Below, piece by piece: positions 1 to 35,916 of a DNA stretch of 35,916 nt. Every line of letters begins with the position of its first letter. Positions within the stretch are counted from its first letter, which is position 1. Below the pieces are notes generated by a model that saw only the letters and a list, made by a program, of their open reading frames with translations, did no database searches and was not told the DNA's origin. Both the position numbers and the translations under genes were made by a program. Origin of the DNA: a virus; the IMG/VR virus record IMGVR_UViG_3300013126_002067, positions 1 through 35,916 of that record. One strand, written 5' to 3'.

Positions 1-534
1 ACCTATAACTTGCAACTTATCTGCAAATAATTTACTAATAGTTTGATACTTAATAACATATTCACCATTTTGATTATCACTATCAAGTTTAAATACCCCC
101 AATTTTGTTAATTCATCAATAAAGGAATTGCACCATTTTTCAGATTTGTTTGATAAGTCAACCCAATCAAAGTTTTCAATATTAAGTTTATCCTCTAAAC
201 TCAACTCATCAACCCCCTCATTAACAAATTTACCAGAAAAAGGCAATTTCATATCACTACTAAATTTAGCAATATCTTTTATAGGCTTCTTTATAATATT
301 ACCACTCCTTGTTTTGTAGTAGATATTATGGTTGGGGGTTAGTAATGCATTGTATGTTTGGTTCTCAATCCTGTGCATTTTTCCCTTATAAGGTTCATTG
401 ATAACATTACTTGGTAAAACAGATGTCATTGTATTTGTTTCTAAATCATACTGAATGACTTCTGTATTGATATCAATATCCTTAAAGTTAACCCAGCCTT
501 TGGGTGTTAGTATTTCAGTACCCTCACCATGACA
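1..534 (-). other. NrdB intein 2, N-terminal part (runs off left edge)
   Basis: It begins at Cys446 of the NrdB frame, directly after extein FAE. Block A reads CHGEGTEILTPKGWVNFKDI and block B reads LLTPNHNIYY with the TxxH signature, so the N-terminal splicing domain is intact. The visible 178 residues end near ISKLFADKLQVIG, which resembles the linker around a LAGLIDADG endonuclease, but no clear LAGLIDADG motif is visible before the edge. The C-terminal splice block (His-Asn) lies outside the window, so the exact end and the +1 residue cannot be given. The alternative of a split intein cannot be excluded from this end alone. Confidence 0.85.
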
Positions 535-1869: not shown

Positions 1870-1946
1870 ATATTTTTTTTTATTGGTTAAGATAAATATG
1901 AAACCAGAAAATAAAAGTATCCAATTTTGATTATAAAATCAATTTT

Positions 1947-3707: not shown

Positions 3708-3716
3708 AAAAAAATA

Positions 3717-4175
3717 TTAGTGGTTAGACAATAAATTCTTCTCTAAATACTGGTGTGTTAAATTCTCACTTATTAGGATATTTGTTAATTCTTTTAAAGA
3801 ATCCTTAATGAAGTGTCTAATGTCAACAGTGTACCTAACTTTTGGTGGATATTGCTTTCCATCAAGAATTCTATGAGATACAATCTGATCTGCAATTTTA
3901 ACATAAATGTTAAATAATTCTGGCTCATCTGTTGATGAAGTTTCCATAATGGTTGGGTCATACAAAATGCTATCTTTGTTGTCAACAAGATAACCTATTG
4001 ATTTCATCTTTAAATACTTTTCAAGGTCATCAGAAAAGTATTTAACAAAATCATAAATTTCCAAAGAATCCTTTGCATTTGGATTAATGTTTTTAATGTT
4101 TAAAAATCTTTGAACAATAATGTTGTTGTTTAATGTTAATAAAAACTCCACCTTTGTTGTTTCGCTCTGTCTCAT
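3717..4175 (-). CDS. Hypothetical protein, 152 aa
   Basis: I do not recognise a family. The protein starts MRQSETTKVEFLLTLNNN, is mixed in charge with many Lys, Asp and Glu, and has no membrane segment, signal peptide, Cys cluster or nucleotide-binding motif. Its place between the RNase H/FEN nuclease gene (18-base gap) and the helicase gene (9-base gap) indicates co-transcription with replication genes. A role in replication, such as a helicase-loading or accessory factor, would be a guess from position alone. It is a real gene judging by its tight packing and its single long frame on the operon strand. Confidence 0.7.
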   Translation of the reverse strand: MRQSETTKVEFLLTLNNNIIVQRFLNIKNINPNAKDSLEIYDFVKYFSDDLEKYLKMKSIGYLVDNKDSILYDPTIMETSSTDEPELFNIYVKIADQIVSHRILDGKQYPPKVRYTVDIRHFIKDSLKELTNILISENLTHQYLEKNLLSNH

Positions 4176-4193
4176 AATTGTTTGTTTAATTTA

Positions 4194-5183
4194 TTAATTT
4201 TTTTTCTCTTTTCTACTTAATTTCATAAATGGTCTAACAAAATCAACCCAAGCATCTTCTCTCTTTGGTAAGAACTTAAAGAATCCATCATCCCTCATTA
4301 ATTTTAATAAGTTCTTATAACTTCTGTCAGTTGGGTCTAATTTTTCACTATAAATCTCCTGCACCATTTTCTTGCCTTCATCTGTTATAAGTGGATTTTT
4401 TAAATCAATTATTTTACCAGTTGTTTCAAAAAACTCATCCCCAACCAAACCAGATTTACTAACACCAGATATTATATTATTCAAAGTTTTACTCTTGGTT
4501 TGTTCATACATTAACTTTGCCTCACTTATAATTTCATTCAATGTATAATCCCTTTTTTCAAAATTTGGAAACAATGTTTTTAATTTCTTTTCTCCAAAAT
4601 TTGCTATGCCATATATATTATCTGATGTATCCCCAACTAAGACTTTATAAACATAGACATTATTATGGGGAATATCAATATCTTTAAAGTTTATTAAATC
4701 TCCATTCTTATAATAAACCTTAGAAACTGGTGAATATATTGTTACATTATTTTTAATTAATTGTGTTAAATCTTTATCACCAGAAAAAATAATCATATTC
4801 TCATCATTTGCCACTTGTGTGTAATTGGCAATTAAATCATCAGCCTCATTCTGATCCACCTGGCATTGTCTAACAAATATTTCTTCAAGATAATCCTTAA
4901 CTCTATCCCTCTGATATAAGTATGATTCATATTTGTGTTCATCCATAGAAATCCTACGGTTTTCCTTATACCTTGGGTATATGTTTTTTCTTACTAGTGA
5001 ATTTTCATTCCCATCCCAGAATACAACAACTTTATCATGATTATGTTTTTCAAGAAATAATCTTATTGTATTTAAAAAATGGAAAACCCCACCAATATGT
5101 TTTCCTTCAGAATAAAATTCACGGACACCATGAAAACCAATTGTAAATAAATTGTTTCCATCTATTAGTAGGGTTTTCTTCAT
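4194..5183 (-). CDS. 5'-3' exonuclease, T4 RNase H / FEN-like
   Basis: A flap/5' nuclease of about 329 residues that would remove RNA primers from lagging-strand fragments. Acidic metal-binding motifs appear in family order: LLIDGNN near the N-terminus, VVFWDGNE, then QNEADDLIANY, FSGDKDLTQL, and the helix-hairpin region VGDTSDNIYGI. The length is close to T4 RNase H (305 aa). ATG at 5183 is preferred: the longer frame would begin at a TTG at 5192, inside the uvsX coding end. With the ATG start the gene begins one base after the uvsX stop, so translational coupling is likely. It belongs to the replication run ssb-uvsX-rnh-hypothetical-helicase. Confidence 0.88.
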   Translation of the reverse strand: MKKTLLIDGNNLFTIGFHGVREFYSEGKHIGGVFHFLNTIRLFLEKHNHDKVVVFWDGNENSLVRKNIYPRYKENRRISMDEHKYESYLYQRDRVKDYLEEIFVRQCQVDQNEADDLIANYTQVANDENMIIFSGDKDLTQLIKNNVTIYSPVSKVYYKNGDLINFKDIDIPHNNVYVYKVLVGDTSDNIYGIANFGEKKLKTLFPNFEKRDYTLNEIISEAKLMYEQTKSKTLNNIISGVSKSGLVGDEFFETTGKIIDLKNPLITDEGKKMVQEIYSEKLDPTDRSYKNLLKLMRDDGFFKFLPKREDAWVDFVRPFMKLSRKEKKN

Positions 5184-5184
5184 G

Positions 5185-6189
5185 TTATTCAAAAATTATA
5201 GTTTCCTCTTCTTCTTTTTCAGAGAATGTAATATCTCCATCCCCAGATAAAATACCATTCCAGTATTGTGAATATTCTTTCTTATACTTTTCAATGGATT
5301 CTTTTGTATCAGGTAAATAACCTTGGGGAACAGCCAGTATCTTGCCATCCTTATATGCTATACCTGTTACATGGTTTTTCAATATGGATACTTTTGTTCT
5401 AATTGCATAGGAAACAGTTCTACCATTCTTTGTTGCTGTTATATGGTTAATACCAGCATTCTTCTGATTTCCAAATAAGAATATTAATGAAGATGCCAAC
5501 CATAATGCCTCACCACCTTTTGCCTTGATTGTTGGTTGCCCAAATGGTGAATCTGGCAATTCTACCCAAGGTTGGTTAATAACCACCATTGTGTTATAGT
5601 AAGGATAATCTTCCTTCTTTGATTTTGATATTCTTGAATGCAAGCCCATCCCAACCTTGTCTGCAAGAACTGCTGCATTGTGCATTTTGCCACCCTTACC
5701 ATCATAAGTCATTTTGCAAGGTATGGATCCAATACTATCAATCAAGAATAAAATTGAATATGGTAAATCACCTTTTTCTTGCTCATCAATAATTTCATTT
5801 ATAAAATCAGTCATTTGCTCAATATAATCAAATGAATCATTGAATATGAAATCGCCATCCCACTCACCATCTTCATTGAGTTCAGCATTCAACCCCAATT
5901 CAACAGCATGAGCCCAATTCCATTTCTTCTCTGTGATTATGAGTACAGGTAAATGACCCTTTCTTTGTGCATCAGCTGCTGCCAATATCATTGCTGTTGT
6001 TTTGCTTGTATTGGAATGTCCCAAGAACATATTAATACCACCCATTACTGGTCCAGGGACTCCACAAGCATTATAAAAAGCATCACCACATGAATAATAT
6101 TCTTCTGGTTTATATTTTGTTTTTGTTGAAAACTTATCCTTGATAGCATCAACCCCAGTCTTTGCTGCCTTTTTCTTTATTCCTGCCAT
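5185..6189 (-). CDS. uvsX: UvsX-like RecA recombinase
   Basis: A 334-residue RecA/UvsX-family strand-exchange ATPase. The ATP-binding loop is GHSNTSKT (residues 57-64), a variant Walker A in which the Gly before Lys is Ser; T4 UvsX also deviates at this position, so activity is not in doubt. ITEKKWNW holds the expected catalytic Glu region, ILFLIDSIGSI is Walker B, and VVINQPW followed by KAKGGEALWLASS matches the DNA-binding loop region and RecA-type GG signature. ATG at 6189 is chosen. An upstream in-frame TTG at 6255 would place the start inside the hairpin at 6212-6264. The gene ends one base before the RNase H start, and the terminator-like hairpin separates it from the ssb gene. Confidence 0.9.
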   Translation of the reverse strand: MAGIKKKAAKTGVDAIKDKFSTKTKYKPEEYYSCGDAFYNACGVPGPVMGGINMFLGHSNTSKTTAMILAAADAQRKGHLPVLIITEKKWNWAHAVELGLNAELNEDGEWDGDFIFNDSFDYIEQMTDFINEIIDEQEKGDLPYSILFLIDSIGSIPCKMTYDGKGGKMHNAAVLADKVGMGLHSRISKSKKEDYPYYNTMVVINQPWVELPDSPFGQPTIKAKGGEALWLASSLIFLFGNQKNAGINHITATKNGRTVSYAIRTKVSILKNHVTGIAYKDGKILAVPQGYLPDTKESIEKYKKEYSQYWNGILSGDGDITFSEKEEEETIIFE

Positions 6190-6211
6190 AAATTTTTTTT
6201 GATTTAAAAAG

Positions 6212-6264
6212 AGAGATTTTTTGCACAAAGTATTGTTTTGTGATACCTTTTGCAAAAAATCTCT
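6212..6264 (-). terminator. Hairpin between ssb and uvsX, terminator or attenuator
   Basis: Perfect 14-bp inverted repeat: AGAGATTTTTTGCA at 6212-6225 and its complement at 6251-6264, with a 25-base loop that can pair further (AAAGTAT against ATACCTTT). On the minus strand the stem is followed by CTTTTT. It lies 10 bases after the ssb stop and 22 bases before the uvsX start, so it probably lowers read-through from the abundantly needed SSB message into uvsX. Confidence 0.7.
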
Positions 6265-6274
6265 TTTAGGTTAA

Positions 6275-7132
6275 TTAAAATGGTAAATCATCATCACTAT
6301 ACTCCTCTTCAACAATAACACTTGTTTGCTGAATTGTTGGAGTTTTTGGAGCAACTGAACCCCCAAATGAAGTTTCCTCATTAGAACTATTTAAGTAAAC
6401 ATATTTACCCTGAGTATCATCCCATCTTGGGGATTCACCTCTTGAAATTGCTTCAAGATATTCTAATGGCTTTCTGCTATACACATCTTTCCATGTGGAT
6501 TCATCATTAATCCATTTCTTTGCAAGTTCTACATCTTGTGATAATGGAGCTGGGTCATCATACATAATGGTTGAAACACTTGTATATTCCTTTCCTTTTG
6601 GACTTTTTGATTTTGTTAAATCAATAATCAAATCTCTACCATTATCCATATCTGTAATATCGCCCTTGGTTCTCATTATTGGAATAATCTTGTCCAATAT
6701 TCCATCTTTCTTGTAGTTGTGTTTGAATCTCCAGTACTTTGGTCCATCTTGCTCATTGTCCCGGTCAATAACCTTAACAACATAAAACAATTTGGCTTTG
6801 TAGTCCTTTGCCAATTCATCATCATCTTTTCTCTTTGTAGCTTTTAGTGCATTGTAAACATCATTAAGTGGTGATGCTTCATTGTCATTACCTGCTGGGT
6901 CATAGATTTTTTGGTAAAAACCCCCAACTTGCAACTCATGAAACCAAGCCTCATTAAATACTGATGTCCCATCTGTTGTTGGTAAAATTCTAATTCTCCT
7001 TTGTCTAGAACTTTCTTTGTCATTTAACAATAATGTAAAATAACGCTTCATTCTGTCTTCCTGTGATAATTTTTTGGAATCTCCCTTTTGGTTTTTTTCA
7101 TACTGCGCCATTATGGCATCTAAATTTGACAT
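6275..7132 (-). CDS. Single-stranded DNA-binding protein, T4 gp32-like
   Basis: 285 residues, close to T4 gp32 (301 aa). The N-terminus is basic and polar (MAQYEKNQKGDSKKLSQ), and the central region has RRIRILPTTDG, KLFYVVKVIDRDNEQDG and YWRFKHNYKKDGILDKI, which fit the OB-fold core of gp32-type proteins. I see no His/Cys zinc cluster of the T4 type. The C-terminus is an acidic tail ending YSDDDLPF, which looks like the bacterial SSB tip (DDDIPF) that docks repair and replication partners. It heads the replication block, after a strong terminator at 7177-7205, and is followed by a hairpin before uvsX. Gene order, tail and length make the call good though the core is divergent. Confidence 0.85.
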   Translation of the reverse strand: MSNLDAIMAQYEKNQKGDSKKLSQEDRMKRYFTLLLNDKESSRQRRIRILPTTDGTSVFNEAWFHELQVGGFYQKIYDPAGNDNEASPLNDVYNALKATKRKDDDELAKDYKAKLFYVVKVIDRDNEQDGPKYWRFKHNYKKDGILDKIIPIMRTKGDITDMDNGRDLIIDLTKSKSPKGKEYTSVSTIMYDDPAPLSQDVELAKKWINDESTWKDVYSRKPLEYLEAISRGESPRWDDTQGKYVYLNSSNEETSFGGSVAPKTPTIQQTSVIVEEEYSDDDLPF

Positions 7133-7176
7133 ATTTATATAGTTTTTATTTACACAATTATAGATAACTAATTTGG

Positions 7177-7205
7177 AAAAAAAAAGGGGTATTTAACCCC
7201 TTTTT
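7177..7205 (-). terminator. Intrinsic terminator ending the tail-gene transcript
   Basis: Stem AAAAAGGGGT at 7181-7190 pairs with ACCCCTTTTT at 7196-7205 around a 5-base loop, followed on the minus strand by more T. It sits 21 bases after the stop of the 241-residue gene and before ssb, separating the structural block from the replication block. The stem is symmetric with T-rich ends on both strands, but no plus-strand gene needs it. Confidence 0.85.
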
Positions 7206-7225
7206 ATAAAAAAAATATCAATTAC

Positions 7226-7951
7226 TTAAAATCTACCATTATAATTTTGATTACTATCAAACTCATCCTCATCATCATCTGATGTATAGAATGTATCCTT
7301 TATTTCATTTGGATTAATATTTGTTATATCATCAGTTGTTAACACATACTCATTCTTTCCACTCTTTTCCATATCAACTTTCTTATCATCAAAGAATTGG
7401 GATAATTTCTGATTAAAAGGATAAGAATCATATGTTCTTAATTCAAGTTTTTCTTCAGGAGTTTTTTCTCTGTATTTTTCTACCTTTGAATCTATGGCAC
7501 TTAATTTGTCAAAAATGGTATCCATATTAGCCAACTTCTGTTCTAATTTATCAATTTGAGCAAATAAGTTATCAAAATACTGATTCTGCTTTGTTTCTAT
7601 GCTCTTTTGACTTGTAACCAAATCTGTGATATCCAATTCTTCTGAATTCTCATCATCTTCTTTACTCTCACCCTCATCATCAATTACTGTAACATCTTCA
7701 TCTGCTTCAACATCTATTGGTTGAGGGTTTGCAGCACTTAAAGGATCTTCACCACCACTCGGGGGGATTGGTGAAACTTCACCTGGGGGTGTCATAGGCG
7801 CATTTGGTAATCCACCTGGTGCTGGTGCTGGCGGTAAACCACCTAAATCTTCAGCAGGTAAAGCATCTTGTTCAAGTATATATTTATTTATACTATGATA
7901 TCTATTTATTTCATTTAATATTCTCTGATCTATTTTCATTTTATTAATCAT
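7226..7951 (-). CDS. Hypothetical acidic protein with Pro/Gly-rich and coiled-coil regions, 241 aa
   Basis: I do not recognise a family. Layout: residues 1-30 polar; about 31-75 rich in Pro, Gly and Ala (DLGGLPPAPAPGGLPNAP); about 76-110 strongly acidic; about 112-165 a predicted coiled coil (FAQIDKLEQKLANMDTIFDKL); then a C-terminal segment ending in an acidic run (SDDDEDEF). It overlaps the preceding 68-residue gene by 8 bases and ends the tail operon at a terminator. Position suggests a virion or assembly role, but nothing in the sequence proves one. Confidence 0.65.
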   Translation of the reverse strand: MINKMKIDQRILNEINRYHSINKYILEQDALPAEDLGGLPPAPAPGGLPNAPMTPPGEVSPIPPSGGEDPLSAANPQPIDVEADEDVTVIDDEGESKEDDENSEELDITDLVTSQKSIETKQNQYFDNLFAQIDKLEQKLANMDTIFDKLSAIDSKVEKYREKTPEEKLELRTYDSYPFNQKLSQFFDDKKVDMEKSGKNEYVLTTDDITNINPNEIKDTFYTSDDDEDEFDSNQNYNGRF

Positions 7952-8150
7952 TTAACAATTCTTTTATACCCCCATGAGTCTTAACCTTAACTTGTCTATT
8001 AACTGTTTTAGTTTCAGTTCTTTCAATTAAACCATCCTTTTCCTTAACAACATAACATTCACCTGTTATTAAATCACAAACTTCTTTTGTTCCATCATCA
8101 AATGCTTGTTCTTTTGTTGACTTTAAGTAATTATTTAAATTTTCAATCAT
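7944..8150 (-). CDS. Small hypothetical protein, 68 aa
   Basis: The protein begins MIENLNNYLKSTKEQAFDDG and has two Cys (EVCDLITGECYVV), with no membrane segment. Its stop overlaps the start of the next gene by 8 bases, which is typical of translational coupling, and it follows the giant hub-like gene by 52 bases. No family recognised. The overlap and operon position are the main reasons to accept it. Confidence 0.6.
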   Translation of the reverse strand: MIENLNNYLKSTKEQAFDDGTKEVCDLITGECYVVKEKDGLIERTETKTVNRQVKVKTHGGIKELLND

Positions 8151-8202
8151 ATAATTTTATTTTACATATAAATATATCAATAAATACAATTATTAAAATA
8201 AT

Positions 8203-11200
8203 TTATTCTATTTTTGGATATAAAATTAGTTTAGTATAATTAACCCACCAATAGTTAATTCCTAAAATTTGTATTGGTATTTTATTAATTGGACCTATAG
8301 TATCATTTTCATTTGGATTTTGATTTCCTTGACTAAAGTTTGGATTTGCTTTTATTTTATTTTCAATAACTGTATTAGTAATTGTGTTTCCAGATTCAGA
8401 AACAACTTGGAACCCAACAAATGGATTTTTGTTTGATTCTTCAGTTATCTCAATATCAATAGTTATTGTATATGTTTGTGCAGAAACAACTTTCAAATCA
8501 AAATTTGATACTTTTGGTGGATACCCAAAAGCATATAATTTTATTAAAGTATCTTCAATAACTTTATTTGTTTGATCTAAGTATAATAATTCTTTTGGAT
8601 TTGTTGTTTCAAAAAATAATTTTAAATTATATGTTGGGTTAATTTCATAAAGTGGTTCTTTTGGTGTCCTTTCTATTTTAATATTATTGTATGTATATTC
8701 ACAAGGTTTTGATAATTTAATTAAATCTATTGGGTCAATAAGTTCCTCTTTTTGCTTCTCTGTTAACTCTTCTTGAGATTTCAATCCTCTTAATGAAGTA
8801 AGTGCTTCTGCATATTTTTTGTTTAATTTAATAGTTCTATCATTTTGAATATCCCTTAGATTAGTTTTATACAACCAATCAATTAAATAAACTTGACCAA
8901 ATAATTCACCTTGGTCAACTATTCCAGAGAAACTTTCTATTGCACTTTGCATATATTGCAAATATGTATCAAAACTAGCAAATAAAGCAAAAGGTGTTTG
9001 TATGGTAGTATTATAATTATTTTGTGCACAATAATATAATTTTTTATCTGAATTAAATTGTATAACATTCCCCCTATTGTAAGTTAACCAAATGTTTCCA
9101 AAATTATAATGATTTGCTTTAAACATACCATTTTCAAAACTTGATAAATAAGAAATTAAATATATATTATCTGCAAATTTATCATCTTCAACTTTTGCTT
9201 TTATTGCAGCATAAACTTCTGTTGCTGAAGACATAATAATGTTTTCTTCTCCTTCTAACTCATATCCTTTATAATCTTCAAATAATTGGTCGCTACAAGC
9301 TGTTGAATTAACTTGGGTTGCACCTCCAGTTTGTGTATTATTTGTTGGTGTTGAACTTTCTGATGCATCATTTTTAATTGAACTGGAATAATTGCTTTCA
9401 ATTTTTGATAATAAATTTTCATTTATACTTGTTAAATATGAATCTGTACTAGGTGGCGAATATATGCTTTGTCTAACCCCTGTGAATACTGTTTCAAATG
9501 AACCTGGTGTTATATTATGTGAAACTTCTGTAATAAAATAGGGACCACCAAACATTGGCACATGTTCCAAATTATAATACATTGTTGGTTGTATTATTGC
9601 ATTTCCAAAACAAGTTATAGTTGATTTATAACTCAAATTCTTATATAAATTAAATAAGGATGCACTTTGTGTTGCAACAGACCTGCTAGATACTGAATTT
9701 CTCATAACTTCTTGTTGCACCAATGATTCTGCTGTTGCTGAACCATTATTCTGATCCACTTGTATTCCATAAAATATTGCTTGATTTCTAATACCAGCAT
9801 CAACCAAGAAACTCACACATTTGTTTGATTGTGACCAATCTTGTTTATTTGTTTGGTCTTCCAAGAATGGTATTTTTGATGGTTTTAAAATATCAATAGC
9901 ATCATCACCATATCTATAATCTTTAGGTCCGCTTGGGGTTGTTGAGCCTCTGCCAGCAAAAACACAAACCAATTTTGGTCCACTTTTTCTATAATCAACA
10001 TCAATATAATTTGCCCAAACATCATTTGCAATATTTGTTGCACTTGCAACAACATCATCCACATCATCACCAGGCGATAAAGCACCATAAAAATTAACAT
10101 ATGATGGCATAGGAAACACATTAAAATTATTGTTTACCAAAATTCCTGCTATAAAATTAAAGATAGGAGTTTTTAAATTACTCTTTGAATTTACAATTGT
10201 TTTTCTTAACTCAAATATATCTATATAATATAAATCTCCAATATTTCTCCCGCCTCTATCCAAGAACAAAACATCTTCAAATAATGTTCTAGTAGTATAA
10301 TCACTGCTTGATATCCATTTATCATTTATTGATTTAAATGATTCATACAAATCATATTTTGAAAATGTACCATCTACTGTTGATGATATATTGTTAAGTT
10401 CAACAACATCAATATTATTTATCTCTCTCTGTAATAATGTTAAAGTTTCATTTATATTATTCTCCAAAAAAGAATCCAATGAATCTTGATTCTTAACCAA
10501 CACATCAAGAAAATCTTGTTTTGTAAAGTTTGGATTTTTTAATTTTTGTGTTGCATATATTTTTATTGGTTTTGCCAATTCAATGACATTTGATTGTGAA
10601 AATTCAATATTATTAACTTTAAAGAAATCTGTTATATATGAACCAGCATCCTTATATTTTAATTGGTCTATTGTTGATAACCCAACATATAAATTTAAAG
10701 TTTCCCATTCTTTTGCTTTACTTGTTTGGGATTTTAATAATGAAACTCCATTTCCTGGTAGTGTGTTTGCAACATAATTGTTATATCTTTTAGGATTTTC
10801 TATCCTTGATGCTCCACCTAAATGATTAATTAATGAATTATATGTATATCTGTTATATTGAGTTGGGTTTCCAAATTTAAACAACACATCATAATTTAAA
10901 AAACTACCTATGAAATTTTTTATATTCTGTGTTTGATATGTTGCTGATTGTTTGTAAAATTCACTATTGCTCAAATCAAGATAATTTGATGGTATTTCCA
11001 TTAGATTTCTAAAAAGAAACTGGAAATTTTTATACGCTGCAACCGGCTGACCAAATTCCAAATCAATCAAATTAATGTTTTCACCAGAATCATCAATATC
11101 ATATATTGATTTACTAAACTTTAAAAATTCAGTTTCAAATAAATCTAAAGTATCATAATCAAATACTGAAAAAATATCCTCTATTGATGCATAACTTGTA

Positions 11201-14200
11201 TTACCAGAATATAATAATGAAAATGAATTAATATCTTTCTTGCTATTAAAATACTCGGTTGGAGATGGTTTTTTCAAATCATCAAATGTAAATGAATTAT
11301 ATACATCTTGCATTATAACACTCAAAGATCCATTATGCGCAATTTTTATCAAATTGTCTGTTGATGTATAGTTGGCATTATTTGTGTTAGAAAATGATTT
11401 ATTTGTTATTCTATTATTATTTGTGGATGGTAAAACATAATGTTTTGATGTTTTATTGAAATTAATATTATCACAATAATTCATAAATGTAACACTATCA
11501 TATATGTTTTGTGGAACAATTACAGAATAACCATTGAATGTTAATCCACTTTTTGAATATTCTAATGATTTGATAATCTTTAGACCCCTGTTTTCATTAA
11601 CATTCAATTCAGTATTTGTATAACCTGAAAATAAATCATAACCATTCAAAAAAGCATTAAAATCATTCAATAACTCTGGATAAAAACCCAAATTTACTTC
11701 ATTACCTTCAACTAATTTAAATGGCACATATCCATTTATCTGATATGTAAAATTGGAATCTTGGTTGTAATTACCTTTATAATCAAAATCTTTCCAAACC
11801 TCATTTAAAAAATCATTACCATTGGTCTTAATATAATTCTTATACCTATGCCAGATTGATCCATATTTCAATACCCAAGCATATGGTAATTTGTGTAAAG
11901 CCCCATACTTTATGAAGGTTGAAAAAACGTGCCCATTCTTATTATTAGACCCTACATTGCTAAAAAAATCAGTTAGTGGAGATAATGGTAAGGAGTTCAA
12001 AAAAAGATAAGCAGAAGCGATGTATGGATGTTTTTCACCATTTCTCCATTTTGTAACACCAACTTGAATTGCATTTGCAAAAATTGGGCTATTGATTATT
12101 GACATCACCTCATTTGTCCCATAATTGTCTTGATAAACTAAACCATACAAAAGTGGATTACTTGATGATTTAAATGGCCTATTTTCTAAAATCTGGTTAT
12201 ATGCCTTAAAATTGGTTATAATATTTCTACTTTGATTAAAAAATATTGTTTTACTAGTGTCAAATTTATTTGGAATACTATTGATTAAATTTTCATTCAC
12301 CCAAGTTGTGTTAGTAAATGGATATGTGAAATTTATATTATCAATGTCTTGTACTTTTGTAACAGCATCTCCTATTGCTTTTATTTGTGTTGAATTTAAA
12401 TTATTTGTAAAATTTTCTGTAAGACTAACAAACTCATTAATATCATATAATTTACTTGAATTGTCTAATTCATTTGTGATATAAATAGTATTTGAGAACC
12501 CATCTAAATACCTATTATAGTTTTCTGAAACGCCATTTGAAAAAGACCTTAACTGTATTCCATAATTGTCATAATTTAAACCACTTTGAGAAAGTAGTAT
12601 ATTTTTTAATTGTTGTATAAAAATAATTGAGTTTGTTGAAAGCGTATTCTGTATATTTTTAAATTCATTCTGTTTAATTAAGTTTCCTATTTCTTTATTT
12701 TTATTATACAATTGTGCTAATCCAGAATAATATGAGGATAATATAATTCTATCCCACAATTCATAAAAGAAACTAACATTTGTTGTTAATTGGTATGGAA
12801 CATTTAAAAATGGATATTCTATTGTGTTATATGTATATTTACTTTGTTCTGTAATATCTGGATTAACAAATTCATTAGGTTGGGGTGATTCCAATCTTTT
12901 AGCATAACCTTTCATAAACTCCTCCACAAATTCAACCTCTGGCCATTTATCATAGAAATATGCTTTTGTTGTATTAATTACTGTTGGATCACCTGGGTAT
13001 ATTAATTCATATTTATTTGCTTCTTTTTTATCATTTGTGTAAAATACTAAAGGCCAAGGAAATACTGTTTTTTCAGTATCAGTTTCAATATTGTTATTAT
13101 CATCCTTTGCTATATTCTGGTCTCCTAAAACTGTTTGAATTCTATCTTTATCATTTCTAACATTCCAAGCAGATGTATGCACATCTTCCATTAATCTAAG
13201 AAAACCTTCTGTTGTAGCTAATATTACTGCAACAATATTTTTAATAGTTGGTTTGAATCCAATACCTGTATCTTTTTTCTCAATTTTTAAAGCTAATTTT
13301 TGTGATAATATTTTTTCAATTTTGTTTAACTCACTAATGAATTTTGATTCCATTTTATTTCTTTCATCAATGAATTTTGATATTGTGAAAACATTAGTTG
13401 TTCTAGTTACACTAGATAATGTATATTCAAAAAATAAATCATTCTTTATTTTATCTCTACAATCATCAATTGTCATAGTATTTATCAAATCTAATGATAT
13501 TGATTTATTTCTTGACTTGTATGTTGCACACCAATCAATGCTTGGATTTTTTGCAACAAACATATCAAAATTAATATTATTAACAATTGTTGCTTCTCCA
13601 TTAATACCAAAAGTTGGATTTGAATTTAATTCAGCATTATGCTTATCTACTATATTTTTTAAATCACTCTCTATTAATAGTATTTTACCATCAGCAGCAT
13701 TTGTGATATATTCTTTTTTTATACCATAAAGAACATCATTTGTATTGTTTAATATTATAGGATTTGGGTCTAAGTATTTGTTAAACCAAGATGTTAAATT
13801 TCCCTTAATTTGATTAAAATAAGATGTTATAATTTTTTTATATAATTTACCATTAGTTAATTTCTGAACATCTACTTGGTTTAATGAATTCAAAACATTT
13901 TGCTCAAACATTTCCAATTTGTAAACCAATTCACTTAATGTTAGTTCAGGTAAATTTTGATCAATCAAACCTTTACTTTTATATTCCTTATATACTTCTA
14001 ATATTTTTTGATATCCAAGTTGGGTGTTTACTTCAAATACTGTTTTACTTCCATTTGATGCTTGAGTTTTGCCTGCTGTTTGATTAGATATGTTTCCAAT
14101 TTGAGATGATGTTAATCCATTTGGCGATTTTTGAGTTATTTCATATTTTTTTGAATACATATTTGGACATGCAATTAAATGCCCAATATTAATATCAGTT

Positions 14201-23409: not shown

Positions 23410-25020
23410 ATGGATTTAATTAATTTTTTTATAAAAGATAATAAAGGAGGTCATAAATCAAAAGAATCTTTTCTTAAAAAAAACTATAATGATTTATATT
23501 GTGAAATACTGAATTATACCTTGCATTTTGATTATATGCCACTAAATAATAGAATATGGCATTACATTTATAAAATAAAAGAAATACCAGTATGTAAAAA
23601 ATGTGGAGTTCAACTTAAATTCAAAAAATCCATTAATGAAGGGTATGGAATATATTGCTCATTACTTTGTACAAATTCTGATATTAATCACATTAATAAT
23701 GTCAAAATAACAAATAATAAAAAATATGGTGGAAATTCACCAATCCATTCTAATGATATAAAAAAAAAGATAATGGATACAAATATGACCAGATATGGAT
23801 ATTCAAATATGTTCCAAGATTTAGATAGAATTAGAGAAAGAACAATAGAGAAATATGGTGTTAACCATATATCAAAATTAAATGAAACAAAAGAAAAAAT
23901 AAAAGAAACAAACATCAAGAGATATGGTGTTAGCTCCCCAATCTTACTAAAAGAAAGTAGAAATAATAGAATAAAACAAGGTGCTATTAATTTTGAAAAA
24001 AAATATAATCATTTGACTATAATAAATCCATATGGTAAAATGGTTGAATTGGTTTGTGATATATGTAATAAAAAATACATAATTGATAGAAGTTTATTGT
24101 TATATAGGTCTAACAATAATATTAATACCTGTACAATTTGTAACCCTATTGGTGATTTATCATCAATCAAAGAAAATGATTTATGTCAATTTTTAACAAG
24201 CAATGGGATTGATTACATAAAAAATGATAGGAAAATATTAAAAGGAAAAGAAATTGATATTTATATCCCCAGCCATAATTTGGCCATTGAATTCAATGGG
24301 GTTTATTTTCATTCAAATTTGTTCAAAAAAAACAATTATCATTTAAATAAAACAAAAATTTGCAATTCTAATAATATTCAATTAATTCATATATTTGAAG
24401 ATGAATGGGATAATAAGATAGAAATTGTTAAAAGCATATTATTAAATAAATTAAATAAAGTTCAAAATAAAATTTATGCAAGAAAATGTGAACTAAAATT
24501 GGTTAAAACATCAGATAAAACAAAATTCTTAAATGAAAATCATATTCAAGGAACAGTTGGTAGTTCCATTAATCTTGGATTATATTATAATAATGAATTG
24601 GTTTCAATTATGACATTTGGAAAGAAAAGACTTGCTCTTGGAAATAAGAAATCAAATAATGGTGAATATGAACTTATTAGATTCTGTAATAAGTTAAATA
24701 CATCTGTAGTAGGGGGTGCATCAAAATTATTAAATCATTTTATTAAAACTTATAGCCCAGTTGAAATTTTAAGTTATGCTGATAAGAGATGGGGTAATGG
24801 TAATTTATATAGAAAATTAGGTTTTGTTGAGGTTAAATCAACAGTGCCAAATTATTTTTATGTTATTAACAAGAAAAGAAGAAATAGATTTGAATTTAGA
24901 AAAGATATTTTAGTTAAAGAAGGTTTTGATTCAAATAAAACAGAATTTGAAATAATGGAAGATAGAGGAATTCCAAGGATTTATGATTCTGGTAATTTTC
25001 TATTTAAATTATTTTTATAA
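23410..25020 (+). CDS. Vsr-like (EDxHD-type) homing endonuclease 1, 536 aa
   Basis: This is the only plus-strand gene. Residues about 55-95 have a CKKCGVQLKF...C...C zinc-finger pattern. Residues about 98-190 hold repeated DNA-binding modules built on KYGxxxxxxxxxxxKxKIxxTxIKRYG-like units. A second Cys pair motif, CDICNKKY with CTICNP, lies near 215-255. The nuclease core is KEIDIYIPSHNLAIEFNG (E281, D283, H289, E294) followed by YHLNKTKIC and LIHIFEDEW, as in the Vsr-fold EDxHD homing enzymes of phages (I-Bth0305I type). The C-terminal 180 residues (HIQGTVGSS, SYADKRWGNG, FRKDILVKEGF) are shared with endonuclease 2. Free-standing homing enzymes cut alleles lacking them and spread by repair. 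Its inverted orientation suggests a late arrival. Confidence 0.78.
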   Translation: MDLINFFIKDNKGGHKSKESFLKKNYNDLYCEILNYTLHFDYMPLNNRIWHYIYKIKEIPVCKKCGVQLKFKKSINEGYGIYCSLLCTNSDINHINNVKITNNKKYGGNSPIHSNDIKKKIMDTNMTRYGYSNMFQDLDRIRERTIEKYGVNHISKLNETKEKIKETNIKRYGVSSPILLKESRNNRIKQGAINFEKKYNHLTIINPYGKMVELVCDICNKKYIIDRSLLLYRSNNNINTCTICNPIGDLSSIKENDLCQFLTSNGIDYIKNDRKILKGKEIDIYIPSHNLAIEFNGVYFHSNLFKKNNYHLNKTKICNSNNIQLIHIFEDEWDNKIEIVKSILLNKLNKVQNKIYARKCELKLVKTSDKTKFLNENHIQGTVGSSINLGLYYNNELVSIMTFGKKRLALGNKKSNNGEYELIRFCNKLNTSVVGGASKLLNHFIKTYSPVEILSYADKRWGNGNLYRKLGFVEVKSTVPNYFYVINKKRRNRFEFRKDILVKEGFDSNKTEFEIMEDRGIPRIYDSGNFLFKLFL

Positions 25021-27034: not shown

Positions 27035-28732
27035 TTAATTATTATTTTTATTTAATTTTAATTCAAACTTTAATGAACCACAATCCCATATTTTATCATA
27101 ACCATTTTCAAACATTATTTGTGATTCTGTTTTATTCTTATCAAAACCTTCTTTAATTAACACATTCTTTCTAAATTGATATCTATGTAATCTATTTTGA
27201 TAATTTTTCTTATAAACATACCAATAGTTTGGGGGAGTTTTTGAAACAAAATCAAAATTGTTTTTCTTATAAATATTGTTATCAATATCAATACCTGACC
27301 ATCTTATATCAGCATATGATATAATTCTACTTGGGTTATATTTTTTAATAAAAAACTTCAAACATTTCCCAAAACCCCCAATAACGGATGTCTTAATTAT
27401 GGAGCAGGATCTATATAACTCATAAGAATTTTTATCCTTGTCCATTCTTGGTTTTCCAAATGTTGAAACAAAAACCAATTTATCATCATAATATAATCCA
27501 ATTTTTATTTTTGATGATATGTTTCCTTGGATATGATTTTTGTTTAAAAAATTTGAAACATCTTCATTTGATATATCCCTAACCTCTGTCTTTCTTCCTA
27601 TTATAACCATTGGAGATTTCCCAATTGATGCCATAATCTTTGATTCAACAATTTCTGGATTATGAATAATTTCATCTTCAAAAATGTGAATTAATTTTAT
27701 GTTTTTATTTTTGCATAAATTTGTTTTATTTATATGATAACCTTTTAATTTTCCTCCACCATATTCTGAATGATAATAATTACCATTTAATTCAAATGCT
27801 ATATTATGTTGGGGTAAAAAATAATCTAATTCAAATGGTTTAATTATTGTTCTATTGTTTTTAACAAACTCAATATTATATTTATTCATTATTTCTTCAA
27901 AAAAAACATTTAAACTATTATTATTTACAATTGGGTTACAAACTGGACATTTTATAACATAACTTCTAAAATATTGTGTGTGCTCAAATATACTATTACA
28001 TTTTGAACATTTTAGTTTTGCAACCCCTTTTGTAGCAATTTCATCATTTAATAAAATTAAACCTAAATTATTCATTCTATTCCTAATATTTTCTAATCGT
28101 ATTTTACCTTGTTTTTCCTTATAATGATTAGATTGTTGATATGTTTGTGTCCCATATTTTTCTAAAATATGAGCCTTCATATTATCTTTTGTTTTTTGTA
28201 ATTTAAATGAACTATCAACCCCATATCTATCCATCATTGTCTTTTTCACTTTATCTTTAAATTCATCTAACCTTAAATGAAATCCTCCATACTTTTCATT
28301 CAAAGTAGTATTAAATTTATCCCTATTATTATAATTTTCATCACCATACTTTTCAAATTTTGTTTTATTTCTCTTAGCAACAATTTCATCTTTATTCAAT
28401 TCAATAGTTGCTTTCATTGATGAAATTATCCTATTCTTTTCATTTTCATTTTTCATATAATGGTCAAATCCATATCTTTCAATTGAAGTTTGTTTTATTT
28501 TATTTTTAACAGATTCAAGTTGAAAATTATGCTCAACCCCATACTTTTCCACCATTGCTTTTTTAGCTAAATCAAGTCTATTCTGTTTATTAACATCTAT
28601 TAATCCCCATTCTTTTCTACATTCATCTGAACATAATTTATTAGGTAGTATTTTTCTAACTTCAAATTCATTACCACAATGAACACAATTTCTTTTTTCC
28701 CAATACTTTGGATTTTTTTCTTTTTTTTCCAT
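27035..28732 (-). CDS. Vsr-like (EDxHD-type) homing endonuclease 2, 565 aa
   Basis: A relative of endonuclease 1 in the same layout. Residues about 16-40 have CVHCGNEFEVRK with CSDEC. Residues about 55-205 carry repeated modules of the type EKYGVEHNFQLESVKNKIKQ. A further CSKC...CPVCNP finger follows, then the nuclease core ELDYFLPQHNIAFELNGNYY, YHINKTNLC and LIHIFEDEI at about 300-350. The C-terminal domain has HIQGNISSKI, TSVIGGFGKCL, SYADIRW and FRKNVLIKEGF. It is inserted between sheath and lysozyme-like genes and followed within 3 bases by a copy of the sheath's final codons, so the sheath 3' end is its likely homing target. No function beyond DNA cleavage is implied. Confidence 0.8.
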   Translation of the reverse strand: MEKKEKNPKYWEKRNCVHCGNEFEVRKILPNKLCSDECRKEWGLIDVNKQNRLDLAKKAMVEKYGVEHNFQLESVKNKIKQTSIERYGFDHYMKNENEKNRIISSMKATIELNKDEIVAKRNKTKFEKYGDENYNNRDKFNTTLNEKYGGFHLRLDEFKDKVKKTMMDRYGVDSSFKLQKTKDNMKAHILEKYGTQTYQQSNHYKEKQGKIRLENIRNRMNNLGLILLNDEIATKGVAKLKCSKCNSIFEHTQYFRSYVIKCPVCNPIVNNNSLNVFFEEIMNKYNIEFVKNNRTIIKPFELDYFLPQHNIAFELNGNYYHSEYGGGKLKGYHINKTNLCKNKNIKLIHIFEDEIIHNPEIVESKIMASIGKSPMVIIGRKTEVRDISNEDVSNFLNKNHIQGNISSKIKIGLYYDDKLVFVSTFGKPRMDKDKNSYELYRSCSIIKTSVIGGFGKCLKFFIKKYNPSRIISYADIRWSGIDIDNNIYKKNNFDFVSKTPPNYWYVYKKNYQNRLHRYQFRKNVLIKEGFDKNKTESQIMFENGYDKIWDCGSLKFELKLNKNNN

Positions 28733-32024: not shown

Positions 32025-32041
32025 AAAGGTATTATTCCTTT
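32025..32041 (-). terminator. Weak hairpin at the end of the second lectin-like gene
   Basis: AAAGG at 32025-32029 pairs with CCTTT at 32037-32041, with a T-rich minus-strand tract after it (GATTATTTTTT). The 5-bp stem overlaps the stop codon region at 32032. It is weak and may be only a partial stop before the sheath gene. Confidence 0.35.
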
Positions 32042-32595
32042 ATTAATCTAATGGGAAAACCATCTTTTTTCCACATGCCACCTTTGCCAAATTCATGTCC
32101 AAAAAATAAAAATACATATCTGCATAAATTTTCATCAATGGATTCTTGTGTGAAATACGGTGATAATAAATCTAATGCAAAATTTCCATCCATATGTCTA
32201 AACCCAGTTGGCTTTGCATTAAACCCAAATTCATCTGTTCCACCAACATTAATGGTTGTTTCAACACCTTCCATATTTTGGGTTGTTGCTGTCCATCCAT
32301 TAATTGATTTTAATTTATGCCCAGCAACATCATTGCCATTGGCAAGATTAATTAATATATTCCAATCATTATCTGTTGGAACTCTCCAACCAATTGGTGC
32401 AACATTTCTACCATCTGTGATAACCCAATAATTATAAAGATAATCATTGTTTTCATTGATGCAATATGCTGGTGATGTTAACTCATTCCATTCATTAATG
32501 TTGGGCACAAATGGAATATCATCACCATTCCTAAATTTTGTTATTGTTGCATTTTCTGTGGACCATATTTGAGATCCGATTTGAATTTCATTCAT
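32032..32595 (-). CDS. Fib_succ_major / C-type-lectin-fold protein without variable repeat, 187 aa
   Basis: It shares the domain plan of the DGR target: IQIGSQIWSTENATITKFRN, AYCINENND, APIGWRVPTDNDWNILINL, HKLKSINGW, and a C-terminal DGFPIRLIKE that parallels YGFSVRCLRN of the target. No stretch resembling the TR is present, so it should not be diversified by this DGR. Its ATG overlaps the RT stop codon (ATGA, 32592-32595), so translation is coupled to RT. Likely roles are a companion or alternative receptor-binding or decorating protein of the tail. Lectin-fold assignment is good; function is inferred from neighbours. Confidence 0.78.
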   Translation of the reverse strand: MNEIQIGSQIWSTENATITKFRNGDDIPFVPNINEWNELTSPAYCINENNDYLYNYWVITDGRNVAPIGWRVPTDNDWNILINLANGNDVAGHKLKSINGWTATTQNMEGVETTINVGGTDEFGFNAKPTGFRHMDGNFALDLLSPYFTQESIDENLCRYVFLFFGHEFGKGGMWKKDGFPIRLIKE

Positions 32596-33749
32596 AATTT
32601 TTTATTTAAGATTATTTTGTAATTATAAATATTAGATATATAATTTAACTTATTATCTATTAAAGTAATCATTTTTTTTCTTAATTTAAATGTTTTATAT
32701 GCTCTAAATAATCCTAAATATGAATTTATTGAAGATACAATCTTTTTCAAATCATTTTTATTAGGTTCATTATTTAATATATAGTTTACTTGTCTTATTT
32801 TTTCATAAAAATTACCTTTTGTTGAATTTTTAATGTAAATTCTATTTGGTTTAATATAAGAACCTAAAAAGGTAACTCCTTTATTATAGTGTTGTAGAAA
32901 TATTTTTTTTGGATGGATATTTAATAGTAAATTTGTTTCCAAAAAAACTTTAATTTTTTGTATTAATGATATTAAATAATTTTTATCATTATTAATTATT
33001 ATGAAATCATCAACATATCTACCATAGTATTTAATATTCATTTTTTCTAAAACCCATTTATCAAATAGATTCATATAGAAATTTGCAAAAACTTGACTAG
33101 TTAGATTACCTATAGGTAATCCAAATCCTGGTAACATACCAAATAAAGATTTTGTTTTTGGCAATGACACCCATTCAGATTTTTTTCCTTTTATTATACA
33201 ATTTTTAATAGGGTTGTTATATACTATTTTTTTAATCAAAAAAAACATTAATTCTTTATCTGATTCAAAATAATTATCTGTAATATACAAATGTAACATT
33301 CTATATAGAATGTCTCTATTTATATGCATAAAAAACCCTTCAACATCTAACTTCAATATAAAACAATCAGTTGTATAATTTTTAGAACATTCTTTTATAT
33401 ATGAGTATATGTTTTTAACACCATAATGAGCACCTTTATTTTTTCTACAAGCATAACTATCATTTATAAATGTCTTTTCAAAAAGCAAGTTCATTTTTAT
33501 TATAAAAAAATGATGGATTATTCTATCCCTAAAATCAGCAGCAAATATTTCCCTTTTTACAGGTTTGTTAACAATAAAAGCAATACTTCTTTTAGGTTCA
33601 TATGAACCATCCAACAACTCATCCCTTAATTTAAATAAATTACTTTCATAATTCATTTCAAATTTTAAAGCATTAGTTGTGTTTCTTTTGTTTTTTCTAC
33701 ATTCATAATATGCTAAAAATAAATCTTTTGTTAATTTTTCATTTTGCAT
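32592..33749 (-). CDS. DGR reverse transcriptase, 385 aa
   Basis: A group-II-intron/DGR-type reverse transcriptase. Motif A is FILKLDVEGFFMHIN (Asp135), the motif 4 region is GFGLPIGNLTSQVFANFYMN (DGR-like IGNxTSQ at 213-219), and the catalytic box is GRYVDDFIIIN (YVDD at 245-248), followed by the KIFLQHYNKGVTFLGSYI thumb-side region. There is no maturase, RNase H or endonuclease domain, and the length (385 aa) fits DGR enzymes. With Avd it should copy the TR RNA into cDNA with errors at template adenines and send it to VR. ATG at 33749 directly follows a hairpin and T tract at 33752-33781; it ends by overlapping the second lectin gene. Confidence 0.95.
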   Translation of the reverse strand: MQNEKLTKDLFLAYYECRKNKRNTTNALKFEMNYESNLFKLRDELLDGSYEPKRSIAFIVNKPVKREIFAADFRDRIIHHFFIIKMNLLFEKTFINDSYACRKNKGAHYGVKNIYSYIKECSKNYTTDCFILKLDVEGFFMHINRDILYRMLHLYITDNYFESDKELMFFLIKKIVYNNPIKNCIIKGKKSEWVSLPKTKSLFGMLPGFGLPIGNLTSQVFANFYMNLFDKWVLEKMNIKYYGRYVDDFIIINNDKNYLISLIQKIKVFLETNLLLNIHPKKIFLQHYNKGVTFLGSYIKPNRIYIKNSTKGNFYEKIRQVNYILNNEPNKNDLKKIVSSINSYLGLFRAYKTFKLRKKMITLIDNKLNYISNIYNYKIILNKKL

Positions 33750-33751
33750 AC

Positions 33752-33781
33752 AAAAAAACCTCTATGTTTTTGACATAGAGG
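33752..33781 (-). terminator. Hairpin with T tract between TR and RT start
   Basis: CCTCTATGT (33759-33767) pairs with ACATAGAGG (33773-33781), 9 bp with a 5-base loop, and the minus strand then has seven T (33752-33758). It lies 10 bases beyond the TR 3' end and ends 2 bases before the RT start codon. As a terminator it would set the 3' end of the TR RNA and limit RT expression; it could also be a structural part of the DGR RNA. Confidence 0.75.
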
Positions 33782-33791
33782 AAACTTTTTA

Positions 33792-33960
33792 AATTTCTGA
33801 GACACCTAACCGAAAAACCGTTCAGAGAACTATTTGTATTCTGATTGAAAGTAGAGTTATTGTAATTCAAGTTCCAGTTGGATCCAGAGGACGTAGTCCA
33901 AAAGTTCCCGTTGTTACTGAAATTGTTCCAACTACCATCCGTATTACGGTTCCCGGGGGG
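33792..33960 (-). repeat. DGR template repeat (TR), 169 bp
   Basis: It aligns without gaps to 34470-34638 (offset 678 bases) with 16 mismatches, all at positions where TR has T on the plus strand, that is A in coding orientation. By hand count, about 50 of its 169 bases are such adenines. Many lie in Asn codons (AAC/AAT) of the frame matching the target, so mutation gives varied side chains. The 30 coding-3'-terminal bases (33792-33821) are identical in both copies, as expected for the initiation-of-homing end. A C8 tract (C6 in VR) marks the other boundary. Confidence 0.97.
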
Positions 33961-33974
33961 GGTAAAAAACAACT

Positions 33975-34075
33975 ACTTAAAACTTTGCTTCCAAGAAAGC
34001 GAGTTGTCAAATTTAAAATGTTCTCTTGTTTTTACCTTAATAAAAAACAACTCTAACATACAAAGTTTTTTAAGT
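33975..34075 (-). repeat. Nested inverted repeats in the spacer upstream of TR
   Basis: The outer arms ACTTAAAACTTTG (33975-33987) and CAAAGTTTTTTAAGT (34061-34075) pair with a 2-base bulge. The inner arms GAGTTGT (34001-34007) and ACAACTC (34047-34053) pair perfectly, and TTGTTTTTA/TAAAAAACAA lies inside. In the minus-strand RNA this would put a compact fold just 5' of TR, overlapping the avd stop codon. Confidence 0.6.
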
Positions 34076-34441
34076 GTTTGGTTTTGGTTTAGATAGAAAA
34101 TTACTCCAACCAGTTATTTGTTTTGAAATATTTTCTATTTTTTCATTTATTTCAATAAAATTATTAACACTTATTTGTTTTAAGTCTTTTAATAACCTTA
34201 CAATAATTCTAATTTTTTCAATTTTTTTTCTACATTTTTTTAAATATTTTAATTTATTATCACTATTAATTGCTATTGCAACACAACTCAACATATTTAT
34301 TATGTTATTTTTTAAATTTTCACCAATGGTGTATTTATATTCCTTATTTAAATTTTTAGAAACATTAAATATTATTAAACTGAGTGAATATACACTTTTA
34401 TATAAAGGTAAGTTTATTTCCATATGCAAACAATAATCCAT
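34070..34441 (-). CDS. avd: Avd, DGR accessory variability protein
   Basis: 123 residues of nearly uninterrupted helix, the size of the Bordetella phage Avd (128 aa), with a four-helix pattern: NLPLYKSVYSLSLIIFNVSK, LKNNIINMLSCVAIAINSD, KYLKKCRKKIEKIRIIVRLL, and FIEINEKIENISKQITGWSN. Basic residues are plentiful (Lys/Arg-rich third helix), fitting a pentameric barrel that binds nucleic acid and the reverse transcriptase. It lies 26 bases after the target stop and directly before the TR, the canonical target-avd-TR-RT order. The family call rests on position, size and helix pattern. Confidence 0.88.
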   Translation of the reverse strand: MDYCLHMEINLPLYKSVYSLSLIIFNVSKNLNKEYKYTIGENLKNNIINMLSCVAIAINSDNKLKYLKKCRKKIEKIRIIVRLLKDLKQISVNNFIEINEKIENISKQITGWSNFLSKPKPNT

Positions 34442-34467
34442 AACAGAAGAAAGTCAAGCATCAATAT

Positions 34468-35292
34468 TCAATTTCTGAGACACCTAACCGAAAAACCGTA
34501 CAGAGAACTATTTGTATTCTGATCGAAAGTAGAGGTACCGTAATTCAAGAACCAGTCGGATCCAGAGGACGTAGTCCAAAAGAACCCGTAGTTACTGAAA
34601 TTGGCCCAACTACCACCCGTACCACGGTTCCCGGGGGGTAATCCATTGAACCCTGATGAATTTGTCCCATTTCCACTAGACCATAATGTTGTTGATTTCA
34701 TTTGTGTTCCAGCATTCCCTGGACTAAGACCACCAAGATAAGTGTTTAATGTTTCAAATTCAACATTTGTTGGCACATGATAACCACTTGGGCATAGATT
34801 ATTATTTGCTGCACCCCCAACTGTGCTACCAGTAACAGCAAATTGGTTATAAACCAATCCATATGTTGCAGTATTAGCTGTTGTTCCATTAACCAATGCC
34901 CAATATTTATTTGATGCGGTTGCTGCTGCCCAAGTTGCATTGTTAACTTCTGATGCATTGCTTAATGGTGTGCCATCTTGAAACGTTTTTGTTTTCAAGT
35001 TTTCTGACATCCATATTTGATCACCAATCTTTATTATTTTATATCTATTACCATCCCCATCTGGCGGGGTTTGTTGATTGATAATACAAGTTTTTGAATA
35101 CCCTGTAAAGTTAAATGAGAATACACCATATTCAAGAGTTTCAGGTGAGCCTGTATATGAATACGGAATTGTTTGTGTTCCAAGATTTGTTTGTGTTGCA
35201 TCTGTGTATGTTACAGTATTACCTGTGGGATGGTAAAGGGTAACATTAGCATTTTCACCGGAATAATTTGAACTATTAATTTCTAATGGCAT
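34468..35292 (-). CDS. DGR target: variable lectin-fold protein (Fib_succ_major), 274 aa
   Basis: Residues 1-75 form a beta-rich N-terminal domain (NVTLYHPTGNTVTYTD, YGVFSFNFTGYSKTC). Residues about 80-274 are a Fib_succ_major C-type-lectin/FGE-like fold: YKIIKIGDQIWMSENLKTKT, YGLVYNQFAV, LCPSGYHVPTNVEFETLNTY, LGGLSPGNAGTQMKSTTLW, then GFNGLPPGNRG and the C-terminal YGFSVRCLRN. The VR covers the last 56 codons and the stop. Compared with the TR frame 11 residues differ, 10 Asn to Gly, Ala, Tyr, Phe, Asp or Thr and one Asp to Gly. It should display a randomised binding surface, likely for host attachment given its location among tail genes. Confidence 0.93.
   Translation of the reverse strand: MPLEINSSNYSGENANVTLYHPTGNTVTYTDATQTNLGTQTIPYSYTGSPETLEYGVFSFNFTGYSKTCIINQQTPPDGDGNRYKIIKIGDQIWMSENLKTKTFQDGTPLSNASEVNNATWAAATASNKYWALVNGTTANTATYGLVYNQFAVTGSTVGGAANNNLCPSGYHVPTNVEFETLNTYLGGLSPGNAGTQMKSTTLWSSGNGTNSSGFNGLPPGNRGTGGSWANFSNYGFFWTTSSGSDWFLNYGTSTFDQNTNSSLYGFSVRCLRN
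34470..34638 (-). repeat. DGR variable repeat (VR), 169 bp
   Basis: This is the copy of the TR inside the 3' end of the target gene, reaching the stop codon (TGA, 34468-34470). Changed positions relative to TR (add 678): TR 33822, 33846, 33857, 33860, 33861, 33872, 33873, 33879, 33905, 33906, 33912, 33926, 33927, 33938, 33944, 33945. Every one is A in the template in coding orientation. Confidence 0.97.
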
Positions 35293-35304
35293 ATATACAT
35301 ATTT

Positions 35305-35916
35305 TTATTTTATGGTTATCCACAAATCACAATTTGATAAATATAAATCACATGGATAAACAATTATTAAATCACAATTTGGTGCGGGCGTTTTACTTGG
35401 TGTTATTGTATTGGTAGGGGTTATAGTTTGTGTTGGTGTTTCAGTTGGTGTGATTGTGTTGGTTGGGGTTATGGTAGGAGTTGGTGTTTCTGTTGGTGTG
35501 ATTGTGTTGGTTGGTGTTATGGTGTTTGTTGGTGTATTGGTTGGTGTTATTGTTCTTGTTGGTGTTATGGTTGGGGTTGGTGTTTCTGTTGGTGTTATGG
35601 TGTTTGTTGGTGTAACTGTATTTGTAGGTGTAACTGTATTTGTAGGTGTAACTGTATTTGTAGGTGTATTGGTTGGTGTCAAAGTGTTTGTAGGTGTAAC
35701 TGTATTTGTTGCAGTGTTTGTAGGAGTTATTGTATTGGTAGGGGTTATAGTTTGAGTTGGTGTTTCTGTTGGTGTTATTGTGTTGGTTGGGGTTATAGTT
35801 TGAGTTGGTGTTTCTGTTGGTGTTATTGTGTTGGTTGGGGTTATTGTGTTGGTAGGGGTTATTGTGTTGGTAGGGGTTATTGTGTTGGTTGGGGTTATTG
35901 TGTTGGTAGGGGTTTC
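35305..35916 (-). CDS. Thr/Pro-repeat protein, C-terminal part (5' end beyond window)
   Basis: The frame is open from the right edge to a stop at 35305, at least 203 codons. Most of it is a tandem series of [18 protein letters not shown] and TPTQTI units, ending in a non-repetitive tail [20 protein letters not shown] that has three Cys. The Thr/Pro units suggest a rigid, extended and possibly glycosylated stalk; the Cys tail could anchor or pair. It is 12 bases from the DGR target start, so it may be the stem on which the lectin-fold protein sits. The start codon lies outside the window. Function is not established. Confidence 0.8.
35390..35916 (-). repeat. Tandem short repeats coding for Thr/Pro units
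   Basis: About 18-base and 12-base units rich in ACACC and CCAACA in coding orientation are repeated to the window edge with slight drift. They encode the Thr/Pro repeats of the gene above. Copy number could change by slippage or recombination. Confidence 0.85.

Follow-up and report, generated by a model that had tools for sequence, protein, structure and literature searches.

In Bordetella phage BPP-1, the diversity-generating retroelement (DGR) is arranged in the order target, avd, TR, RT. The TR-brt spacer adopts a folded structure, recruits bRT-Avd and provides the priming for cDNA synthesis (PMC12875486), and a hairpin behind VR is required for efficient homing (PMC3240598). Surveys of viral DGRs have found that tail proteins are frequent among the targets (PMC8144416), and phage DGRs that diversify FISUMP-type proteins have already been published (PMC8143477). 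Among the latter are the Bacteroides uniformis phages Bacuni F1, F2 and F4, which combine a DUF1566/Fib_succ_major target with the order target-avd-TR-RT and include phages whose otherwise almost identical genomes diverge mostly within VR (PMC8143477).

The DGR described here lies in a 35,916-nt window, i.e., the whole stretch of DNA that was analysed and to which all coordinates refer; L-numbers denote the related contigs and loci compared (Table 1). It is a well-preserved new example of a kind already known. With BPP-1 it shares the order of its parts and A-biased changes (18 of 22 in BPP-1, aligned here), but the RTs are only 27% identical in the aligned part, and BPP-1 has a 144-nt TR-brt spacer, no terminator behind TR and the VR hairpin needed for homing. 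Bacuni resembles the window in target family, order and a divergence of close relatives that lies mostly in VR, with RTs that are 39–42% identical, but Bacuni phages are siphophages with two targets, a hairpin behind VR and no terminator behind TR. The chromosomal DGRs of Bacteroidota and Flavobacteriales (L062–L070 and others) have RTs that share 53–59% identity with that of the window and are placed in the same region of the RT tree, the avd-TR-RT order and a terminator-like hairpin behind TR. In contrast to the window, most of their targets end in a VRAVRAF-type motif instead of FISUMP, and several have a small hairpin behind VR.

Table 1. Coordinates of the DGR cassette and of the neighbouring genes in the window.
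Feature	Position	Strand	Remarks
End of PTxT-repeat stalk protein, runs off the window	35305..35916	-	619 aa in L002
Target gene, 274 aa	34468..35292	-	PF09603 (Fib_succ_major/FISUMP) 1.3e-33
VR	34470..34638	-	169 bp; differs from TR at 16 positions, each a template A
avd, 123 aa	34070..34441	-	bAvd 6.8e-14; phrog_3206 9e-16
avd-TR spacer, non-coding	33961..34069	-	89–99% identity among relatives
TR	33792..33960	-	169-bp alignment with VR; no difference from the L002 TR over the full 169 bp
Invariant 3' tail of TR (IMH-like)	33792..33819, VR copy 34470–34497	-	A's unchanged in four TR/VR pairs
Terminator-like hairpin CCTCTATGT-CAAAA-ACATAGAGG + T7, between TR and RT	33752..33781	-	
DGR RT, 385 aa	32592..33749	-	IGNLTSQ, YVDD
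Second FISUMP protein, 187 aa, without VR	32032..32595	-	PF09603 4.4e-24
Tail sheath (gp18-type), 1049 aa	28832..31981	-	phrog_23 1.3e-58

The proposal of a T4-like phage in the first-pass annotation is borne out by a DnaB/gp41-type helicase, UvsX, a gp32-type ssDNA-binding protein, sheath and tail tube; the window does not extend to capsid or terminase. The relatives of the sheath include T4-like phages, and among cultured phages Microcystis phage Mel-JY01, which also encodes a FISUMP gene, ranks first. The relatives of the RT, the FISUMP family and the small number of SD sites point to a Bacteroidota host, and the DGR was probably acquired from a Bacteroidota DGR. Rfam and tRNA searches returned no match in the window. 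Two large minus-strand ORFs contain intein-like insertions: in ORF 1947–3707 the insertion lies in a DnaB-type helicase, and ORF 1–1869 partly matches thymidylate synthase as well as terminase/helicase families that bear insertions. Genes at 23410–25020 (plus strand) and 27035–28732 (minus strand) match DUF7487 and resemble mobile endonuclease genes; the latter is located between the sheath and a glucosaminidase gene, and its presence there varies among relatives.

The first-pass annotation had described a complete DGR beside the tail sheath. The families of RT, Avd and target, the A-only mismatches between TR and VR, and the minus-strand order and coordinates of target, avd, TR and RT were all confirmed. 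The sheath is indeed nearby but not directly adjacent, as the second FISUMP gene intervenes. This gene, the hairpin behind TR and the replacement of the cassette in sister phages had been overlooked.

Profile searches identify the RT (RVT_1, 5.5e-14; phrog_1423, 1.2e-87), and its motifs IGNLTSQ and YVDD fit the IGxxxSQ and YxDD pattern of DGR-type RTs. Compared with solved structures, its profile matches 8ub7 best (3.7e-30), from the series of the BPP-1 RT-Avd-RNA complex; the next match is at 6e-8, and group II and retron RTs are far behind. In the RT tree, the protein sits among RTs from loci with A-biased TR/VR pairs. In sequence identity, it is nearest (59%) to RTs of chromosomal Flavobacteriales/Bacteroidota DGRs. 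The Avd assignment includes a match to the family named 'Avd protein of DGR' (phrog_3206); the protein scores 50 of 80 bits, under the NCBIfam equivalog cut-off, and has no match in the PDB profile search. Comparison of avd with L003 and L004 gives a dN of 0.02 and a dS of 0.21–0.26, and dN/dS is about 0.13 for the RT and about 0.08 for avd. At the sequence level, both genes are intact and evolve under purifying selection.

The target consists of an N-terminal module of ~70 residues, followed by a FISUMP domain that contains VR at its end and presumably adopts a C-type-lectin-like fold. The PDB profile search found no sequence relative of the target, and structure predictions for the target and the second FISUMP protein reached a pLDDT of 32 and 36, respectively. 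The N-terminal module matches the stalk N-termini of L028 and L021 (hhalign, 97.1%) but reaches only 33% with the window's own stalk type. Its relationship to stalk proteins of the lineage supports, without proving, a role as virion adhesin.

The start of the second FISUMP gene overlaps the RT stop codon. The gene occurs in 16 viral loci, regardless of whether a DGR is present, and is therefore considered a constant flanking gene outside the DGR. In DGR-less relatives, the protein shows 69–92% identity and is best conserved at its C-terminus, the counterpart of the target's variable part. A function as second DGR target was rejected on account of this conservation, the absence of a TR repeat inside the gene and its occurrence without a DGR. 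In L024 (7001–7561), the gene looks recombinant, with an L003-like N-terminal and a window-like C-terminal part.

Realignment and a mismatch tally, which the first-pass annotation had named as the check that could refute it, again give a gapless alignment of TR and VR in which every mismatch falls on A in the coding strand of TR. The earlier estimate of about 50 A and a chance probability of about 10^-9 can be replaced by a count of exactly 50 and a hypergeometric p of 4.8e-10. The changes comprise 8 A>G, 6 A>T and 2 A>C, nine at the first and seven at the second codon position and none at the third, and recomputation reproduces the alteration of ten Asn codons and one Asp codon to G, A, Y, F, D or T. 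VR occupies the 3' end of the target gene, up to its stop codon; a repeat search extends the 3' boundary by 3 nt to 172 nt, at the cost of a single non-A mismatch at the stop codon. In four pairs, VR matches the last 28 nt of TR without change, and a mismatch follows just beyond the boundary; the invariant A's in this tail look as expected for an IMH boundary. At the other end, the avd-TR spacer terminates in a C run immediately before TR; the length of this run (33961–33962 region) differs among the window, L002, L003 and L004 in an otherwise AT-rich genome.

The DGR is also carried by L002 (99.25% DNA identity), L003 (RT 87%), L004 (86%) and, in part, by L005, while L019 and L022 contain the end of a related RT gene. 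A search for further DGR-positive members of the lineage, using avd and the exact TR-tail pattern, retrieved the same contigs only. Mismatches are at template A in 20/20 cases in L004, where the edge of the contig cuts 3 nt off VR, in 22/24 in L003 and in 21/25 in L002. As an internal control, TR-TR differences between phages of the lineage show no A bias (3/18 at A, p = 0.95). The window and L004 together have 36 differences, every one of them at A, a pattern indicative of recent retrohoming from the TR they now carry.

L002 differs from the window in a more complex manner. The two TRs are identical, but the VRs are only 84% identical, with about half a dozen further differences over 8.3 kb. 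A patch of ~85 bp that starts some 60 bp upstream of VR, outside the region covered by TR, differs as well. The L002 VR shows four non-A changes and a 3-nt insertion relative to its own TR, indicating that the change in L002 is not plain retrohoming. The simplest reading is that, in addition to retrohoming, recombination probably brought in VR and patch from another phage, although a chimeric assembly may also account for the difference.

The variable site begins with the PTxT-repeat stalk gene. Relatives with 88–93% identical sheaths that are devoid of the DGR (L017/L018, L023–L025, L027, L028 and L030, with L018 on a 270-kb contig) share with the window their upstream genes and the first 70 residues of the stalk protein. 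In place of target-avd-TR-RT, they mostly contain long PTxT stalks with glycine-rich, repeat-type or other C-terminal domains and small accessory genes; the constant FISUMP gene and, behind it, the sheath come next. The site is nearly empty in L030, where an 82-aa stub precedes the constant FISUMP gene. No DGR RT was found on the contigs of these DGR-less sisters. L021 encodes two tandem FISUMP targets, the first of which is A-biased in comparison with the window TR (27/42, p = 5e-8); an RT elsewhere on this 37-kb contig or on the 270-kb relative was sought and not found, and these records may be fragments. The L021 region (139–13098) encodes several PTxT-stalk proteins in addition to the two FISUMP targets, but its constant FISUMP gene is not followed by a sheath: the same genes occur here in another context. 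Gene-order comparison identifies the DGR as one allele at a site where adhesins are swapped.

Ten nt past TR and just ahead of RT, the window contains a hairpin with a perfect 9-bp stem and T7, the only terminator-like site of this type in the window (0 expected), in a TR-RT spacer of about 42 nt. It is identical in L003 and L004, and the post-TR fold of the lineage has z-scores of -2.9 to -4.0. Hairpins with unrelated stems directly behind TR recur in most related Bacteroidota DGRs (L062–L066, L068, L070, L072, L076–L080, L083 and L087; z about -3.6 to -7.5), but folding detects none in L069 and L081. By strict terminator criteria, 13/29 TR-bearing loci qualify, against 0.006 expected per search window; the resulting p of about 1e-21, or 3e-16 with near-copies collapsed, is rough, since the loci are related. 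These criteria miss L066/L077, L068 and L099 (a larger version of L078), in which folding finds a strong stem, and they identify no post-TR terminator in BPP-1, Bacuni F1/F2, Haboob, BS-TP1, Magia and others. In the RT tree, the window falls inside a Bacteroidota DGR group that holds nearly all hairpin positives; the tree does not resolve the inner order of this group, and the hairpin label needs several changes on it. A hairpin or cruciform 4–34 bp behind VR is common in phage DGRs but not universal, and the window lineage shows no strong hairpin at this position (z = -1.1 to -1.7). Among the related loci with a post-TR hairpin, only L078 reaches z -3 or lower in the 60 nt behind VR. L064 and L068, Bacteroidota DGRs with TRs of 128–185 nt, likewise have no hairpin behind VR; the L064 target, with 962 aa, ends in a FISUMP-like motif.

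The chances are about even that the DGR of the window belongs to a Bacteroidota DGR subclass with a discrete template RNA and an intrinsic terminator directly behind TR, in which RT-Avd recruitment and cDNA priming would have to proceed without the long spacer of BPP-1, and that this element has also lost the hairpin behind VR. The TR RNA of the window would then end at the hairpin, about 40 nt beyond TR. Another possibility is that the hairpin, as a short version of the structured BPP-1 spacer, serves RT-Avd recruitment and cDNA priming instead of termination. It occupies the same position as that spacer, for which folding, bRT-Avd recruitment and priming have been described (PMC12875486), and its structure is kept while its sequence is not. 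However, T-runs follow most stems, as in intrinsic terminators, making this a doubtful alternative, and the terminator and recruitment roles are compatible with each other. Still less likely, the hairpin is a leader attenuator of RT expression, acting by SD occlusion or termination and unrelated to the TR RNA. It ends ~10 nt ahead of the RT start and covers AGAGG, but SD sites are missing from nearly all other genes in the window, and SD occlusion was rejected as its main role. In several related DGRs, the RT match begins 84–207 nt behind TR and the hairpin is still directly behind TR; as this also holds for L078, where the RT begins 785 nt from TR, the hairpin appears to be tied to TR and not to an RT leader.

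For the locus as a whole, the best explanation is a complete DGR that, with high probability, diversifies the C-terminal face of a FISUMP protein, most likely a receptor-binding protein of a T4-like Bacteroidota phage; enzyme activity, adhesion role and host are what we infer. This reading draws on the A-only mismatches of the window and the A bias of its relatives, the RT, Avd and target families, purifying selection, the identical TR with a changed VR in L002, module exchange in DGR-less sisters, the post-TR hairpin and the order shared with Bacuni. The missing hairpin behind VR and an L002 VR that is not cleanly derived from its own TR speak against it. Both could be accommodated by a fossil DGR, whose mismatch pattern was made earlier and whose present VR changes stem from recombination between phages instead of active retrohoming; the altered upstream patch and the two FISUMP targets of L021 on a contig without RT would fit as well. 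However, the intact and selectively constrained RT and avd, and the restriction of all differences in the window and L004 to A, render a fossil improbable.

In the favoured reading of a complete DGR, the TR RNA would start upstream of TR and stop at the hairpin behind it. RT and Avd would copy this RNA into a cDNA mutated at template A, and the cDNA would replace VR as far as the invariant 3' tail. With the cassette located in an adhesin-exchange site, a phage may carry either a fixed or a self-mutating adhesin. The open-access literature searched, with subscription papers mostly outside its scope, contains no description of terminators or TR hairpins in DGRs, which is weak evidence that the post-TR terminator is an undescribed detail. 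In the same literature, the step that concerns the 3' end of the template RNA is described in detail only for BPP-1, and the recurring post-TR terminator constitutes a concrete prediction for this end in Bacteroidota DGRs. The occurrence of one lineage with and without a DGR at one locus, between the same sheath and stalk neighbours, makes it possible to ask what a phage gains from a self-mutating as opposed to a fixed adhesin.
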